Source: a virus. Taken from it: a stretch of 40,732 nt of DNA. A model generated the notes under the pieces. It did not search any database and was not told the origin of the DNA. It was given only the letters and a program-made list of their open reading frames with translations. How positions within the stretch are numbered: position 1 is the stretch's first letter; each line of letters begins with the position of its first letter. Location: IMG/VR virus record IMGVR_UViG_3300045993_000439, positions 1-40,732 of that record, one strand, 5' to 3'. Positions 1,129 through 37,702 of this stretch are shown here, one piece after another. A program made the translations under genes and the position numbers.

Positions 1129-1150
1129 AGTTGCGGTTGTTAATATAGTA

Positions 1151-1178
1151 AGTATATACATTCATATGTATATGTCTA
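1151..1178 (-). promoter_or_regulatory. promoter with palindromic operator for the RHH gene
   Basis: Reading the minus strand, TAGACA (1173-1178), a 16-base spacer and TATACT (1151-1156) form a good sigma70-type promoter. The spacer is filled by an inverted repeat, ATATACAT and ATGTATAT separated by TCAT (1154-1173). A second inverted repeat TGTGG-GTAT-CCACA lies just upstream at 1180-1193. An RHH dimer or tetramer bound here would block polymerase. The start codon is 22 bases past the -10 box, so a short leader of about 15 bases is expected. Confidence 0.65.
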
Positions 1179-1196
1179 GTGTGGGTATCCACATTC

Positions 1197-1222
1197 CAGC
1201 AGTCGATTTTGATCGACGGCTG
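1197..1222. other. strong intergenic hairpin
   Basis: CAGC, one mismatch, GTCGAT, loop TTTG, ATCGAC, one mismatch, GCTG: ten base pairs around a four-base loop. It sits between the end of the zinc-ribbon gene upstream and the RHH promoter. No U-tract follows on either strand, so it is more likely an mRNA 3'-end stabiliser or processing site than an intrinsic terminator. Confidence 0.6.
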
Positions 1223-1232
1223 AGTGTAAATA

Positions 1233-1946: not shown

Positions 1947-2264
1947 TTAGTGATTCATTACATAATGCTTACCTGATAATTTTTCGCACTCACAAAATTG
2001 ATGTCCACCACATGAATCACTCCCTAGCTCGCGCTTGTTGCGACACTGGAAGTGTGCACAATACACCATACTCTTGAGTGAGATGCGTGGATACTTTTGT
2101 CTATTAGTTTGTGATGTCTCGTAACCATCCTGCTCGAACATCTTTTCAAGTATTTCCTTTACTTGGTCGAGCTCGAGTACATGATGCTTACCATCTACGT
2201 ACACTTCACACTTTACCCCTCCAGCATAACCAGAAGAGAAAAGGATGTCGTCTTTTGTAATCAT
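1947..2264 (-). CDS. cysteine/histidine-rich hypothetical protein
   Basis: 105 residues from the ATG at 2262-2264. The C-terminal third holds YCAHFQC, CGGHQFCEC and two further histidines, which could bind zinc; the N-terminal part looks like a small alpha/beta fold (MITKDDILFSSGYAGGVKCEVYVDG). An upstream in-frame ATG at 2316-2318 would extend it by 18 residues, but those would be encoded by the 3' arm of a tRNA-like element and by a conserved leader hairpin, so that start is rejected. The A-rich run AAAAAATT precedes the chosen ATG, as in three sibling genes. Confidence 0.7.
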   Translation of the reverse strand: MITKDDILFSSGYAGGVKCEVYVDGKHHVLELDQVKEILEKMFEQDGYETSQTNRQKYPRISLKSMVYCAHFQCRNKRELGSDSCGGHQFCECEKLSGKHYVMNH

Positions 2265-2274
2265 AATTTTTTGT

Positions 2275-2295
2275 CGTGGCTTGTTAGCGTCCACG
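2275..2295 (-). promoter_or_regulatory. leader hairpin with CGCTAAC loop, copy 1
   Basis: Minus strand: CGTGG, loop ACGCTAACAAG, CCACG, then an A-rich stretch of ten bases and the ATG of the 105-residue gene. One of four hairpins (others at 2800-2821, 3089-3109, 3469-3490) sharing the loop core CGCTAAC and a 9-11 base A-rich gap to the start codon. Confidence 0.7.
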
Positions 2296-2299
2296 CTCC

Positions 2300-2395
2300 A
2301 CGTTACAAGGTGTAACATCCCTGTGCCGAATCGAACGGCTTTTTACTTGCGCCAGTACCTCCCGACTGCAAGAGAGATGCTACAGCTTGTAACGT
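2300..2395 (-). ncRNA. tRNA-like element A with a 23-bp closing stem
   Basis: On the minus strand, 2373-2395 pairs with 2300-2322: 20 Watson-Crick pairs, 2 G-U pairs and a single C-C mismatch. It encloses two hairpins. The first (2346-2372) has stem CTTGC/GCAAG and a large loop with AGTCGGGAGG, like a tRNA D arm. The second (2325-2339) has stem GCCG/CGGC around loop TTCGATT, the canonical T-loop. No anticodon arm separates them; only TAAAAA does. It cannot be a decoding tRNA but looks like a tRNA mimic. It lies in the gap between the 126-residue and 105-residue genes, directly upstream of leader hairpin copy 1. Confidence 0.65.
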
Positions 2396-2408
2396 GTGTG
2401 CGTAAAAA

Positions 2409-2789
2409 CTAATCAACGTATGCGCCGTACATTGACGGCTGTGCTATAAAGTCCTCGTATGGCGTGCCGTTTACTGTCTTAGCTTTCATATCCACCACCA
2501 ACGTTGTAAACTCCTCTTCCATAACGTATGGCGCAATGCCGTAACCTGTTACGTCGTCCCCCGCGTCCGCTGTCATATCTGTGAAGATAACACGTGCGAG
2601 ATATGTCTCATCGTCCCATCTGTCACGTGCGCGCTCTAATGAGCTTGCTAGTGTCTCCTCGAGCCCTTCAGCTCCCCAATGTGTATAGAAGTACACACTA
2701 GGCCTATTTTCTGGTACACGAACCATTGTACCTCCGTCTGCTACAGTCTCTTCTTCGTAAATAACTTGTATATTGCGTCTCATTCCCAT
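2409..2789 (-). CDS. conserved phage hypothetical protein
   Basis: 126 residues from the ATG at 2787-2789 (an alternative ATG two codons on, at 2781-2783, is equally possible). The core VYFYTHWGAEG, ASSLERARDRWDD, YLARVIFTDM and GYGIAPYV is a signature I recognise from many unrelated phages, always of unknown function; the pattern suggests a small alpha/beta cytosolic protein. A longer ORF starting at 2870 is rejected because its extra 27 residues cover the repeated leader hairpins and overlap the next gene. Preceded by an A-rich run and hairpin leader copy 2. Confidence 0.8.
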   Translation of the reverse strand: MGMRRNIQVIYEEETVADGGTMVRVPENRPSVYFYTHWGAEGLEETLASSLERARDRWDDETYLARVIFTDMTADAGDDVTGYGIAPYVMEEEFTTLVVDMKAKTVNGTPYEDFIAQPSMYGAYVD

Positions 2790-2799
2790 ATTTTTTTTG

Positions 2800-2821
2800 C
2801 GTGGCTTTGTTAGCGTCCACG
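2800..2821 (-). promoter_or_regulatory. leader hairpin with CGCTAAC loop, copy 2
   Basis: Minus strand: CGTGG, loop ACGCTAACAAAG, CCACG, then an A-rich gap of about ten bases and ATG at 2787-2789. Immediately upstream is a larger hairpin (2825-2849) with arms CTATGCT/AGCATAG and an inner CAG/CTG, almost the same as the one in copy 3. Confidence 0.7.
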
Positions 2822-2824
2822 TTG

Positions 2825-2849
2825 CTATGCTCCAGTGACTGAAGCATAG
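2825..2849 (-). other. upstream hairpin of leader copy 2
   Basis: Arms CTATGCT and AGCATAG enclose a further T-G and CAG/CTG pairing, making about eleven base pairs. The outer bases ACGT on each side can extend the stem, and in doing so use the 5' strand of the following CGCTAAC hairpin, so the two may compete. Confidence 0.55.
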
Positions 2850-2860
2850 ACACGTGATAA

Positions 2861-3079
2861 CTAATTCCACTCACTCACCTCGTCGCCTGCTTCGTTGATG
2901 ATTTGCATCTGGTAGTACGTCCCAAATTCTCCTTGCTCGTTAAATTCCTCGCGGGTCATATTATCAAATTTTTCGCGCGCGATTGCTTCGGCTTGTTCCT
3001 CGTCAATTGCATCTATCTCGTATGAGATAAGTATAGGTTGCTCGATGTTGACTGTGAATTTTTGTGTTGTTGTATCCAT
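2861..3079 (-). CDS. hypothetical protein, 72 residues
   Basis: Sequence runs as a strand (FTVNIEQPILISYEIDA), a helix with alternating alanines (DEEQAEAIAREKFDNM) and a second strand (YYQMQIINEAGDEVSEW). This beta-alpha-beta layout is common among tiny phage proteins; I cannot name the family. Acidic, soluble. The ATG is nine bases past leader hairpin copy 3 and is preceded by AATAAAAAA rather than a Shine-Dalgarno site. Confidence 0.7.
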   Translation of the reverse strand: MDTTTQKFTVNIEQPILISYEIDAIDEEQAEAIAREKFDNMTREEFNEQGEFGTYYQMQIINEAGDEVSEWN

Positions 3080-3088
3080 TTTTTTATT

Positions 3089-3109
3089 CGTGTCCGTTAG
3101 CGGTACACG
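3089..3109 (-). promoter_or_regulatory. leader hairpin with CGCTAAC loop, copy 3
   Basis: Minus strand: CGTGT, a bulged A, CCG, loop CTAA, CGG, ACACG. The stem is longer than in the other copies, and compensating changes (CGTGT/ACACG against CGTGG/CCACG in copies 1 and 2) keep it paired, which supports selection on the RNA fold. Confidence 0.7.
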
Positions 3110-3112
3110 TTG

Positions 3113-3136
3113 CTATGCTCCAAAATTGAAGCATAG
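3113..3136 (-). other. upstream hairpin of leader copy 3
   Basis: Arms CTATGCT and AGCATAG around a ten-base loop, flanked by ACGT on both sides (3107-3110 and 3139-3142) that can add four pairs. It repeats the hairpin at 2825-2849, with a different loop. Confidence 0.55.
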
Positions 3137-3148
3137 ACACGTATAACT

Positions 3149-3457
3149 CTACTTCGCCTTATTGCCCTTTATGAACTCAACACACAATGCTATAAAATGC
3201 TTTGATTCGATGTCGTCGAGCTTTGCCATTCCTGTTACCTTCGGACACTCCACGAGCCCCTTCGTTTCGATAACGTTTATTTTTTGTGATGTCATTGCCT
3301 CTCTGAAACGATAGTCCCCTCCAAATGTCTCTTTGACTGTGTGAGACATGCAATAATTTTGCTTCGTGTCTATCAAGTCAATTTTGAACACTCCATAATT
3401 CCAGTTTGCACCCGATGGATGGTTGTATCCAACACGTGATAATGTGATGATTTTCAT
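3149..3457 (-). CDS. hypothetical protein, 102 residues
   Basis: Taken from the ATG at 3455-3457 (MKIITLSRVGYNHPSG). A start 21 residues upstream is rejected because that stretch encodes leader hairpin copy 4. The protein is alpha/beta with a mixed charge and three cysteines; no motif recognised. It is the first of the genes that carry the hairpin leader, reading from the promoter region at about 4 kb. Confidence 0.65.
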   Translation of the reverse strand: MKIITLSRVGYNHPSGANWNYGVFKIDLIDTKQNYCMSHTVKETFGGDYRFREAMTSQKINVIETKGLVECPKVTGMAKLDDIESKHFIALCVEFIKGNKAK

Positions 3458-3468
3458 TTTTTTATTGT

Positions 3469-3490
3469 TTGTGTCTGTTAGCGGACACAA
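3469..3490 (-). promoter_or_regulatory. leader hairpin with CGCTAAC loop, copy 4
   Basis: Minus strand: TTGTGTC, loop CGCTAACA, GACACAA, seven base pairs, then ACAATAAAAAA and ATG. Stem bases differ from the other copies but remain complementary. Upstream lies another hairpin (3493-3518) with TCTAAA/TTTAGA and GAG/CTC. Confidence 0.7.
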
Positions 3491-3492
3491 GC

Positions 3493-3518
3493 GAGGTCTA
3501 AATTTGACTTTAGAGCTC
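3493..3518 (-). other. upstream hairpin of leader copy 4
   Basis: GAG, one mismatch, TCTAAA, loop GTCAAA, TTTAGA, one mismatch, CTC. It occupies the same place as the CTATGCT hairpins of copies 2 and 3 but has an unrelated sequence, so the two-hairpin arrangement rather than the sequence is conserved. Confidence 0.5.
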
Positions 3519-3528
3519 AATGTATTAA

Positions 3529-3651
3529 CTAACTCAAGACTTTGTGCATGAACTTCTCCGCCTCTTCTCTGGTTGTAAATTCTCCAAGCTTAGAGCCTAT
3601 TGTTACATTTGCCACCACGTACTTTTCACCATCTAAAAAGATAATTATCAT
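3529..3651 (-). CDS. hypothetical protein, 40 residues
   Basis: Small ORF with ATG at 3649-3651 and TAG at 3529-3531: MIIIFLDGEKYVVANVTIG, then a helix TTREEAEKFMHKVLS. The strand-strand-helix pattern and the tight packing, one base after the stop of the upstream membrane-protein gene, support it being real. No function assigned. Confidence 0.6.
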   Translation of the reverse strand: MIIIFLDGEKYVVANVTIGSKLGEFTTREEAEKFMHKVLS

Positions 3652-4359: not shown

Positions 4360-4714
4360 CTTATTGTCATAAAATAGATATTGTGCGACGTTACAAAAGC
4401 CCTTATATTGCTACTTATTCCCCCCTTTTTGTTTTTTTGATAGGGGTATGACTTTTAAAAAGCTTGCTTTGTTTTTTCTCTGCTTTTATTTTTCTTTGAT
4501 TGATAATAATAGAATCGCTGGGGGGTGTCCCCCTTTGTGGTAACTGTTGCATTTTCGCCTCCCCGCCCGATCTATGGACCAAATTTTTCAAAAAACCATT
4601 CTATTGACAAAAGTGGTATAGTGTTACATCGTATAAACCATCCCCTCCACAAAGAGCTAATGTATAAACGTTGATGTTAGAGAAATGAAAGTATAAAAAA
4701 TATCATCTAATTTA

Positions 4715-4737
4715 TATTCACAATTTTATTGTGAATA
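4715..4737. promoter_or_regulatory. perfect 10-bp palindrome
   Basis: TATTCACAAT, loop TTT, ATTGTGAATA: a perfect inverted repeat, AT-rich, about 130 bases upstream of the first plus-strand gene. It looks like a protein-binding operator or cruciform; it has no terminator tail. Confidence 0.5.
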
Positions 4738-4791
4738 ACATTATGTTATACACACTAACAATCATTCACTAAGGCGTACACTACACCTAGA

Positions 4792-4829
4792 CGTGGCAAC
4801 AAGTGGGAGTAACCAGGCTCCCCGCCACG
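4792..4829 (+). promoter_or_regulatory. nested leader hairpin before the HNH-like gene
   Basis: CGTGGC (4792-4797) pairs with GCCACG (4824-4829); inside, GGGAG (4805-4809) pairs with CTCCC (4818-4822). ACCTAG flanks the structure on both sides as a direct repeat. It ends 24 bases before the AGGAG site of the 73-residue gene, so it is a structured 5' leader. Confidence 0.5.
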
Positions 4830-4863
4830 ACCTAGATCATTTCAACCAAAATAGGAGTTCATC

Positions 4864-5085
4864 ATGAGACGTAAAAGTCGAAAGCACTATGACTGGCACC
4901 ATCGAAAACCTCGCTCGCTTGGTGGTAAGAATGTAGATGAAAACATGTCTCATGTTTCTATCTCGAAACACAGGGCGTGGCACACACTTTTTAGAAACTA
5001 CACCCCACAACAGATAGCTAAGATCATCAACAATATCTGGCTAGATCCTGAGTGGGAATTTACACTTGAAAGGAGAACATTGTGA
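4864..5085 (+). CDS. HNH-like small protein
   Basis: 73 residues. Residues 9-45 carry DWHHRKPRSLGG, a conserved asparagine pair and SISKHRAWHTLF, the H-H, G-G, N and H spacing of short HNH-nuclease-like proteins common in phages and small bacterial genomes; the C-terminal PQQIAKIINN-IWLDPEWEF helix is part of the same family. Whether it cuts DNA is uncertain. TAGGAG lies seven bases upstream of ATG, one of the few clear Shine-Dalgarno sites. Its stop overlaps the next gene's GTG. Confidence 0.75.
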   Translation: MRRKSRKHYDWHHRKPRSLGGKNVDENMSHVSISKHRAWHTLFRNYTPQQIAKIINNIWLDPEWEFTLERRTL

Positions 5086-27991: not shown

Positions 27992-28152
27992 CCAGCATAC
28001 CGCTGAGTTTTATTTCAGAGATGTGCTGGTGAGGGGTGTAGAATATAAACGGAATCGAACCTATGACCTCTCAGACCTCTCCATGTTGCCATGTCGTGTT
28101 GAGTGCTCTACCTAGCTGAGCTATATACTCATACCCCCCTCACCAGCATACC
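27992..28152. repeat. CCAGCATACC direct repeat flanking the tRNA-like element
   Basis: CCAGCATACC occurs at 27992-28001 and 28143-28152. On the minus-strand RNA, the 3' arm of the tRNA-like closing stem (ending at 28024) can pair with TGCTGG from the first copy (27992-27997) instead of with its own 5' arm, so the leader has two competing folds. Confidence 0.55.
28024..28148 (-). ncRNA. tRNA-like element B with a 13-bp closing stem
   Basis: Minus strand. A tRNA core at 28040-28130: acceptor GAGTATA/TATATTC (seven pairs), TA, D arm GCTC-AGCTAGGTA-GAGC, and T arm with loop TTCGATT. It is wrapped by a 13-bp perfect stem, 28024-28036 with 28136-28148. The T stem has only three good pairs. Between the D and T arms are 39 bases with no normal anticodon loop; they hold CATG-GCAA-CATG and a duplicated GAGAGGTC (28065-28081). 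CCA is not encoded. It looks like a tRNA mimic rather than a decoding tRNA. Confidence 0.65.
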
Positions 28153-35384: not shown

Positions 35385-36242
35385 CTAGAAATTTCCCTCG
35401 TTTACCTGGAACACAGGAAGGCCATTATCTCTCCACATACGTACCACTGAGTCACGGTCATCGAACACAGCAAGAACATTGTATCTACCTTTAAGCCATG
35501 TATCATATATCTCCTGCTTGATGATGTAGTCAGGTCTCTTATCTCCAGTCTCTCTCATAAATAGACTTGTACAAGTGAGACTTGTCTTATCGTGTATCCA
35601 CTGACGTGTTATCTCTTTACAAGAATCATCTCTACCTGATACAACAATTATATAACAGTCATTCTCTTCAGCTTTAATGAACCCTCTAACAGCACGTTCA
35701 ACTGACTGGTTAACTATATCAACACCAACCTTACTGAAGTCATAGATATCACGATCACCTTTGATTGCTAGTGTTCCATCCATATCTACGATGATACAAC
35801 TAGGTAGTGAGTGGTCGTATTCAACTACAGGTATAGGCTTCACAAACTTACGGTACATATCCATGATCACTGCTTCACCAACACGTTCAACACGGTTACG
35901 ATCACGCTTGAGACATTCTTCTAGTGGTACATCAAGTAAGCTAACAATCTCGATGTCAGCTTTATCTCCGAACTTCTCACGTATAGTTGCCTCGTGTTTC
36001 GGATGGAGGTTAGTGTCATCAACGATTACGTTGTAGTTTTTTGATAGCAGTGTACCTATAGCGAAGTCACGCATCTCTAGTACCGCGTTCTCCTTACTGT
36101 TAGTGAACGTACCCCCGAGCATCTTACGAATATCGTCCTTGTTGAGACGTACAGTATCGCTTGAGTTCTCTATCATATTACGTGCGAGAGTTGATTTTCC
36201 GCAACCTGGCAATCCCTTCATTATGTATATCTTTTTCTTCAT
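35385..36242 (-). CDS. pseT: polynucleotide kinase / 3'-phosphatase
   Basis: 285 residues, bifunctional. N-terminal kinase: P-loop GLPGCGKST (10-18), TVRLNKDDIRKML and DDTNLHPKH with their metal and phosphate ligands, and an Arg-rich lid (RDRNRVERV). C-terminal phosphatase, HAD type: VDMDGTLA (about 152-160) with the nucleophile aspartate, then VSGRDD and FDDRDS. This is the T4 Pnkp layout: it heals RNA or DNA ends so that ligase can seal them. In T4 it repairs tRNAs cut in the anticodon loop. Confidence 0.9.
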   Translation of the reverse strand: MKKKIYIMKGLPGCGKSTLARNMIENSSDTVRLNKDDIRKMLGGTFTNSKENAVLEMRDFAIGTLLSKNYNVIVDDTNLHPKHEATIREKFGDKADIEIVSLLDVPLEECLKRDRNRVERVGEAVIMDMYRKFVKPIPVVEYDHSLPSCIIVDMDGTLAIKGDRDIYDFSKVGVDIVNQSVERAVRGFIKAEENDCYIIVVSGRDDSCKEITRQWIHDKTSLTCTSLFMRETGDKRPDYIIKQEIYDTWLKGRYNVLAVFDDRDSVVRMWRDNGLPVFQVNEGNF

Positions 36243-36640: not shown

Positions 36641-37702
36641 CTATTTATCTATGTCTACTTTATAAGTTTTATTCCCATGAGGGCGAAGTAACCTAGCTAT
36701 TTGAACCCACATATCACTTCTATCTAAGAAGCCAAAAGCGATTCCCGGATACTTACACTTCTTAATTACTTCAGCTTGCTCCTTTCTTGTTTCGAACTTC
36801 TCAGCTTCATGAACAGCATCCCATGCTTCAGATCCTATCTTACACATTTGATCTTTTATAGTACCTGCGATGTTATCGAACCAACATAACATCTCTTCTG
36901 GTACAGATGCGCGTAGAGTATCATCTGTCTTATCTCTCACTGCTTCCCATACTGTAATCTCATTAAGGCCTGTCATAATTCGGTGCAACTTAACATAGTC
37001 ATCGAACTTAATCTTGTAACGTACGTTTGATACTGGATAGTAAACCACGTAACCCTCTTCGTTCTTCTTGTTGCGTGCCTTCATCTCCTTAACATCTACC
37101 GGATTGATTTCGAACATCGGCATCCCTACCGGTGAGTCAAGGAACGGAAGCATATCTATCACCATAGTACCGGTGTTGATCTCAATGGAACCTAAGTACA
37201 CGAGCCCATCCCATCCTTCGTAATCAACTACGATACGGTTCTCAGGGTAGATGATCTCGAATACATGAGTGTACCCTTCTTTGTTCTTGATGTTAGGGCA
37301 GTTCTTTTGAAACCACTCTGTTGCGAACTGTGCCTGATCGCTCTTGAAGCTACCACGCGTTGCGATCATCGGCTTACCACCAATAAAGTACAGGATACCT
37401 AGTGATCCATCATACTTCTCCATCACAAAAGGAACTTCCCCTGCGATACCAACGACCGGTAAGTTCTTCTCAATGAGCTCTTCATAGTTGAAGAACTTAT
37501 TATAACTACGTGCTATCACTTCACCATCGCTTGTTTTAACGATGAGTCCACGGCACATGAGTGTTACCTCGTCCCACGCCTGAGAGTATTGACACTCCTT
37601 AGTGTAGTTGAAGATAGACAGTCCTGCTTCTGCATGATGAACACACTCAGTAAGTAATCCCTTAGAAACGTATTCACGAATTGCGGTTACGTCTACTTTC
37701 AT
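36641..37702 (-). CDS. rnlA: Rnl1-type RNA ligase
   Basis: 353 residues. Motif I MEKYDGSLG with the AMP-accepting lysine near 95; RGLIV upstream; EEGYVVYY (motif IV) and YKIKFDDYVKLHRI (motif V), in the order and spacing of T4 RNA ligase 1. The first 90 residues match the Rnl1 N-terminal strand pattern around CRGLIV. It seals RNA ends healed by the kinase-phosphatase next door, typically restoring tRNAs cleaved by host defences. Confidence 0.9.
   Translation of the reverse strand: MKVDVTAIREYVSKGLLTECVHHAEAGLSIFNYTKECQYSQAWDEVTLMCRGLIVKTSDGEVIARSYNKFFNYEELIEKNLPVVGIAGEVPFVMEKYDGSLGILYFIGGKPMIATRGSFKSDQAQFATEWFQKNCPNIKNKEGYTHVFEIIYPENRIVVDYEGWDGLVYLGSIEINTGTMVIDMLPFLDSPVGMPMFEINPVDVKEMKARNKKNEEGYVVYYPVSNVRYKIKFDDYVKLHRIMTGLNEITVWEAVRDKTDDTLRASVPEEMLCWFDNIAGTIKDQMCKIGSEAWDAVHEAEKFETRKEQAEVIKKCKYPGIAFGFLDRSDMWVQIARLLRPHGNKTYKVDIDK

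Follow-up and report, generated by a model that had tools for sequence, protein, structure and literature searches.

Introduction

The mRNA of phage lambda cIII can adopt two alternative folds near the gene start, in a system that concerns one gene and is controlled with RNase III. Stable mRNA structures located right after the stop codon, named ribosome termination structures (RTS), are found in spacers of at least 25 nt and are depleted in shorter ones; in a synthetic operon in E. coli they reduce re-initiation (Chemla et al., 2020, PMC7518266). Cluster K mycobacteriophages carry the SAS and ESAS sequences in multiple copies before many small non-structural genes: the SAS, 13 bp of invariant sequence (GGGATAGGAGCCC), directly precedes the start codon, and about half of the copies have upstream inverted repeats, 17-bp long and of fixed consensus (Pope et al., 2011, PMC3203893).

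Four related spacers of an uncultured phage bear on how ribosomes move between the genes of operons that lack Shine-Dalgarno sites. We read them, with a probability of about 45%, as copies of a cis-acting mRNA element that would fill the spacers of co-transcribed early genes and gate the translation of the next gene by termination on the upstream one.

Results

The phage and its small-gene array

The stretch of DNA analyzed (hereafter the window, 40,732 nt) is a 40.7-kb IMG/VR virus record of a tailed phage, with terminase, head proteins and an internal virion protein, as well as a DnaG-type zinc ribbon, an exonuclease, a polynucleotide kinase-phosphatase and an RNA ligase. The kinase-phosphatase and the ligase, which is T4 Rnl1-like, are near neighbors on the minus strand (35385-36242 and 36641-37702) and likely constitute a tRNA-repair pair against host anticodon nucleases. 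An Rfam tRNA match (38 bits, 91 nt) at 28040-28130, minus strand, was not called by ARAGORN and is possibly an unusual tRNA. Alignments of the terminase and of the family of the gene at 3149 had zero matches in 84,980 bacterial and archaeal genomes searched for a host, and in tblastn against known phages the matches were limited to remote terminases and to two small genes with homologs in actinophages.

The leftmost 4 kb of the window hold an array of small genes on the minus strand, with sigma-70-like promoters upstream (4052-4024 and 3943-3915). Four of these genes are preceded by the element described below:

1947-2264, minus strand, gene led by copy 1, 105 aa, start supported by a homolog in phage G003 (L149)
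2409-2789, minus strand, gene led by copy 2, phrog_31860
2861-3079, minus strand, gene led by copy 3, 72 aa, no family
3149-3457, minus strand, gene led by copy 4, 102 aa, same start residue in homologs from four other phages

The sequence-only reading had remarked that these leaders lack a Shine-Dalgarno site and had suggested that hairpins replace it in loading ribosomes. The lack is real in the four leaders but not special to them, as SD-like leaders precede only 9 of 52 genes (3.5 expected). They are found before 6 of 31 genes in G003 and 12 of 13 in L132, another kind of phage, while in the window phage and in its relatives G001, L158, L159 and L160 most genes are without Shine-Dalgarno site and most are also without such a hairpin. 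The absence being genome-wide, the four led genes are not singled out by it and no hairpin has to be invoked to account for it; a loading role is not supported, and the G003 ortholog of the copy-1 gene starts without such a hairpin. To our knowledge, moreover, the conserved 3' terminus of 16S rRNA in bacteria does not contain GUUAGCG, the complement of CGCTAAC.

A compensated hairpin before four start codons

Four minus-strand hairpins with CGCTAAC in the loop, each followed by an A-rich gap of 9-11 nt to the ATG, were confirmed in the window. We call them hairpin B (p-values are against shuffled tails):

2275-2295, minus strand, hairpin B copy 1, CGTGG-acgctaacaag-CCACG, 10 nt to ATG, p 0.028
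2800-2821, minus strand, hairpin B copy 2, CGTGG-acgctaacaaag-CCACG, 10 nt to ATG, p 0.008
3089-3109, minus strand, hairpin B copy 3, CGTGT-accgctaacgg-ACACG, 9 nt to ATG, p 0.0015
3469-3490, minus strand, hairpin B copy 4, TTGTGTC-cgctaaca-GACACAA, 11 nt to ATG, p 0.0085

The copy-2 gene may instead start at its second ATG (2781-2783), in which case the spacing would be 16 nt. The stems vary by compensation, as had been claimed. No core pair is lost in any copy, and two of the five change on both sides: a G-C pair has become U-A in copies 3 and 4, and a C-G pair U-A in copy 4. Three copies have a bulged A. Pairs were counted by explicit position, the automatic alignment of the copies having put the 3' arm wrong. 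Across the four copies the hairpin exceeds shuffled tails with a Fisher p of 4e-6. The heptamer CGCTAAC alone is not rare (7 occurrences in the window vs. 3.2 expected), while a loop heptamer common to four start-proximal hairpins was reached in 0 of 300 shuffles of the 59 leaders, and one common to three in 16. As a general start signal, CTAAC showed a modest enrichment only (9 leaders vs. 3.7 expected) and was discarded.

Comparison with other known elements gave no assignment. In the left arm no Rfam family, riboswitches included, reached the gathering score, and a scan at weak E-values returned chance-level matches only. Hairpin B is followed by runs of A and not of T, and no intrinsic terminator lies within the elements on the minus strand, where one weak terminator match was found at the end of an upstream gene (2427-2414). 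Bypassing of the T4 gene 60 type was rejected, the codon before the stop recurring before the next ATG in copy 2 only, and so were hairpin promoters of the N4 type, the large proteins of the phage including no virion RNA polymerase of N4 size (the largest reading frame, 1009 aa, is an internal virion protein).

Two folds within the spacers

Hairpin B is half of a larger element, in spacers of 69-144 nt that run from the upstream stop codon to the next start codon (z-scores are from folding against shuffles; energies are for 37 C and no ribosome):

2265-2408, minus strand, spacer 1, between the TAG stop (2409-2411) of gene 2409-2789 and the ATG at 2262-2264, MFE -63.0 kcal/mol, z -7.1
2790-2860, minus strand, spacer 2, MFE -25.4, z -4.9
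3080-3148, minus strand, spacer 3, MFE -23.9, z -4.8
3458-3528, minus strand, spacer 4, MFE -16.2, z -4.2
2299-2396, minus strand, hairpin A copy 1, inverted repeat 2299-2322/2373-2396, 24-bp stem, 88% complementary
2825-2849, minus strand, hairpin A copy 2, CTATGCTTC...GGAGCATAG
3113-3136, minus strand, hairpin A copy 3
3493-3518, minus strand, hairpin A copy 4, GAGCTCTAAA...TTTAGACCTC, short
2397-2411, minus strand, 5' strand copy 1, UAGUUUUUACGCACA, including the upstream stop codon; long-fold partner of the hairpin B 5' arm and loop CUA
2850-2863, minus strand, 5' strand copy 2, stop codon TAG at 2861-2863
3137-3151, minus strand, 5' strand copy 3, stop codon TAG at 3149-3151
3519-3531, minus strand, 5' strand copy 4, stop codon TAG at 3529-3531; p 0.007 with the stop codon kept

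In copy 1, hairpin A contains two inner stem-loops, one of which (GCCGTTCGATTCGGC) resembles a tRNA T-arm, with no tRNA called there. A strong structure (z -6.6), without CGCTAAC, also occurs in the spacer at 1132-1232, minus strand, which precedes a ribbon-helix-helix-like gene.

The upstream hairpin that had been said to compete with hairpin B exists in a more specific form than claimed, as a long fold anchored on the stop codon and drawing on a shared strand. Instead of closing hairpin B, its 5' arm together with the loop CUA(A) can pair with 13-15 nt at the beginning of the spacer, where the UAG stop pairs CUA; since this segment has two possible partners, we refer to it as the switch strand. 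The long hairpin so closed encloses the upstream stem-loop, hairpin A being present in both folds. The minimum-energy fold is the long hairpin in copies 1-3 and hairpin A plus hairpin B in copy 4; in the latter hairpin B is dominant (P 0.88), and the sequence cut after CTAAC takes a long form like that of copies 1-3.

Such long hairpins bring to mind a role in mRNA processing, in which an RNase III-like enzyme would cleave the long hairpin, a structure of about 20 bp interrupted by internal loops, and hairpin B, into which the downstream fragment would refold, would protect the new 5' end. Long irregular hairpins between early genes do resemble processing sites of the T7 type, early promoters stand upstream of the array (4052-4024, 3943-3915) with no terminator inside the spacers, and processing would need both folds, in sequence; copy 4, with its short hairpin A and disfavored long fold, argues against it, and we consider processing improbable. 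For the switchable element that we prefer, what matters is whether both pairings of the shared strand are kept.

At positions 1-5 of the switch strand, counted by position in the four copies, 20 of 20 cells are paired in both folds. Position 1 holds C in copies 1-3, with G as the partner on both sides, and U in copy 4, with A on both sides. At position 5, copies 1-2 have G and copies 3-4 have U; opposite it, C is replaced by A in hairpin B, and U by A in the 5' strand. Against shuffled 5' strands with the stop codon kept, the long fold has a p of 0.002, or 1.6e-4 when the related phage L160 is included, and taken one by one three of the four tests reach only p 0.07-0.11; these values, like the Fisher p for hairpin B, are optimistic and overstate independence, because the copies are few (four, in one phage) and copies 2 and 3 are largely alike in sequence. 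The upstream genes of all four copies end in TAG, a stop used by 18 of 61 genes (p 0.008). A three-strand descriptor matched 4 of 10 window spacers, 1 of 5 in L160, 0 of 286 from other contigs, mostly of unrelated phages, and 8 of 1430 shuffles, and, as it was written after the positives (the copies and L160) were known, it measures rarity and is no discovery. The folding pattern is well supported, and conservation of both folds is shown as far as four copies and one independent phage allow.

In six phages pooled, post-stop structure was much stronger in spacers of 40-260 nt than in gaps below 25 nt (p 1.5e-8), and the lowest 40-nt energies in spacers 1-4 were -12.6, -19.2, -18.3 and -9.6. The elements could accordingly be static ribosome termination structures, insulating each gene against run-on re-initiation, with the second fold a by-product of nearby repeats. 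Strong structure after the stop, seen in spacers longer than 40 nt but not in those shorter than 25 nt, matches the published pattern, and the related phages L158 and G001 have long hairpins in spacers with little or no competing hairpin B. Static insulation, however, needs neither a compensated hairpin B at a fixed distance from the ATG, as in the four copies and L160, nor a common loop, and we deem it unlikely.

Related phages

Homologs of the led genes were found in five phages (L160, G003, L158, L159 and G001, the last also numbered L161). Three pattern scans of viral contigs, exact-motif scans from which the source record or near-identical ones may be left out, found no CGCTAAC leaders in a second phage, a result that for the first scan holds among the matches listed. 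The matches in L140 and L145 were set aside as unrelated; these viral contigs have perfect hairpins with a C(UAAC)G loop just past stop codons, whose stems differ by compensation.

In L160 (5473-5544) the three-strand plan of the window copies recurs in unrelated sequence and in a single copy. Its long fold pairs UAAUUCUUACA with UGUGAGAGUUA around a stem-loop (-23.0 kcal/mol), while in the alternative fold GUGAG pairs with CUCAC, 10-11 nt before the ATG (-17.3). The stop UAA stands opposite a loop UUA, where the window counterpart is UAG opposite CUA.

G003 carries, between 2087 and 4990, seven near-identical 82-nt spacers that run, cassette-like, from the stop codon of a small gene to the next start and consist of a hairpin A, a hairpin B and an A/T-rich leader. 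Their B stems change in step (CTGATT/AATCAG, CTGTTT/AAACAG, CTGTTA/TAACAG). Competition is weak (4 bp), as a 5' CAGU can pair with ACUG at the start of hairpin B. L158 has three long stop-proximal hairpins with a common 3' strand and a hairpin B-like structure in one copy only, and L159 has no such element. Upstream of the homologous gene in G001 (4700-5000), GTTAGTTAGTACATTGA is kept relative to GTTAGTTAATACATTGA at 3519-3531 of the window, the rest of the leader being different; further downstream, AAGCAATAA is repeated on both sides of a long hairpin.

The copy-1 gene ortholog in G003 starts without the element, which hence goes with the array rather than with the gene. Repeated spacers of this kind might serve as joints for DNA recombination that shuffles small genes, the RNA folds being secondary. 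The elements span from stop to start codon, the near-identical G003 copies adjoin unrelated genes, and the element can precede a gene in one phage and be missing before its ortholog in a second, yet compensating stem changes would be superfluous for recombination sites and integron-type ends (RYYYAAC...GTTRRRY) are absent; we regard such a role as very improbable. Integron attC sites were likewise rejected, since the 5' end shows GTTA/TTAG and the 3' end CGCTAAC, the opposite order to RYYYAAC...GTTRRRY.

Phage coat protein and RegA operators are the models for another possibility, that a phage or host protein would bind hairpin B and its CGCUAAC loop and repress or activate the four genes together. 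An invariant loop on a variable stem, at a fixed site before the ATG of four genes in one array, is consistent with an operator. The loop nonetheless has another explanation, because its CUA pairs the upstream UAG and the L160 spacer, which starts with UAA, carries UUA; in addition, the plan is kept in related phages with other loops (AGUUAACCAA, GAC, GAAA), and no candidate binding protein was identified. An operator seems to us quite unlikely.

Discussion

The spacers may best be seen as bistable relatives of ribosome termination structures, that is, as intercistronic RNA that would set the passage of ribosomes from gene to gene. Three strands would take part: the 5' strand, beginning with the upstream stop codon; the switch strand, formed by the hairpin B 5' arm and CGCUAAC; and the 3' strand, that is the hairpin B 3' arm. 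The switch strand can form with the 5' strand the long hairpin closed on the stop codon, and with the 3' strand hairpin B, 9-11 nt before the AUG. The 5' strand measures 13-15 nt, counted from the first stop-codon base, which is about the footprint of a terminating ribosome, so that termination should favor hairpin B. Hairpin B would then hinder ribosome entry, while the long fold would leave the A-rich leader open, and the element would insulate each gene, or gate its translation, depending on termination at the end of the preceding gene. This direction, with hairpin B restrictive and the long hairpin permissive, is the weakest step, and the opposite sign is possible.

A broader proposal is that a family of phages employs repeated RNA switches, anchored on stop codons, as the standard joint between early genes, in which termination would flip the folds and set the next initiation, the plan being conserved across phages and the sequence not; we put it forward tentatively and hold it to be rather doubtful. 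A natural repeated element with the stop codon in the pairing offers a concrete design, open to testing, for control by sensed termination, and a part that synthetic operons could take over as it stands. Spacer RNA of uncultured phages can keep its plan but not its sequence, and such cases are missed by sequence searches.

Among the known systems, SAS and ESAS resemble the window elements as multi-copy sequences before the starts of small phage genes. The 13-bp SAS sequence, however, is absent from the four leaders, which have an A-rich sequence in its place, and where the 17-bp inverted repeats would stand each copy has a hairpin A, with three different sequences in four copies; in the window the stems vary by compensation and only the loop is fixed. 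Lambda cIII shares two folds near a gene start in a phage mRNA, but it has neither the stop-codon anchoring nor the family of copies that characterize the window elements. Translational coupling and attenuators are alike in that a ribosome at the end of a reading frame masks one strand and decides the fold before the next start (PMC12548453), although classic coupling hides the next ribosome site in an inhibitory fold, whereas here the start codon and the A-rich leader are free in both predicted folds.

The likeness is close with RTS, a class that the window elements fit by position and energy, including the pattern of gap lengths. RTS are, however, a statistical class of static structures, already known as such, while the elements of the window form a repeated family in which the stop codon is paired and a mutually exclusive second hairpin lies beside the next start.
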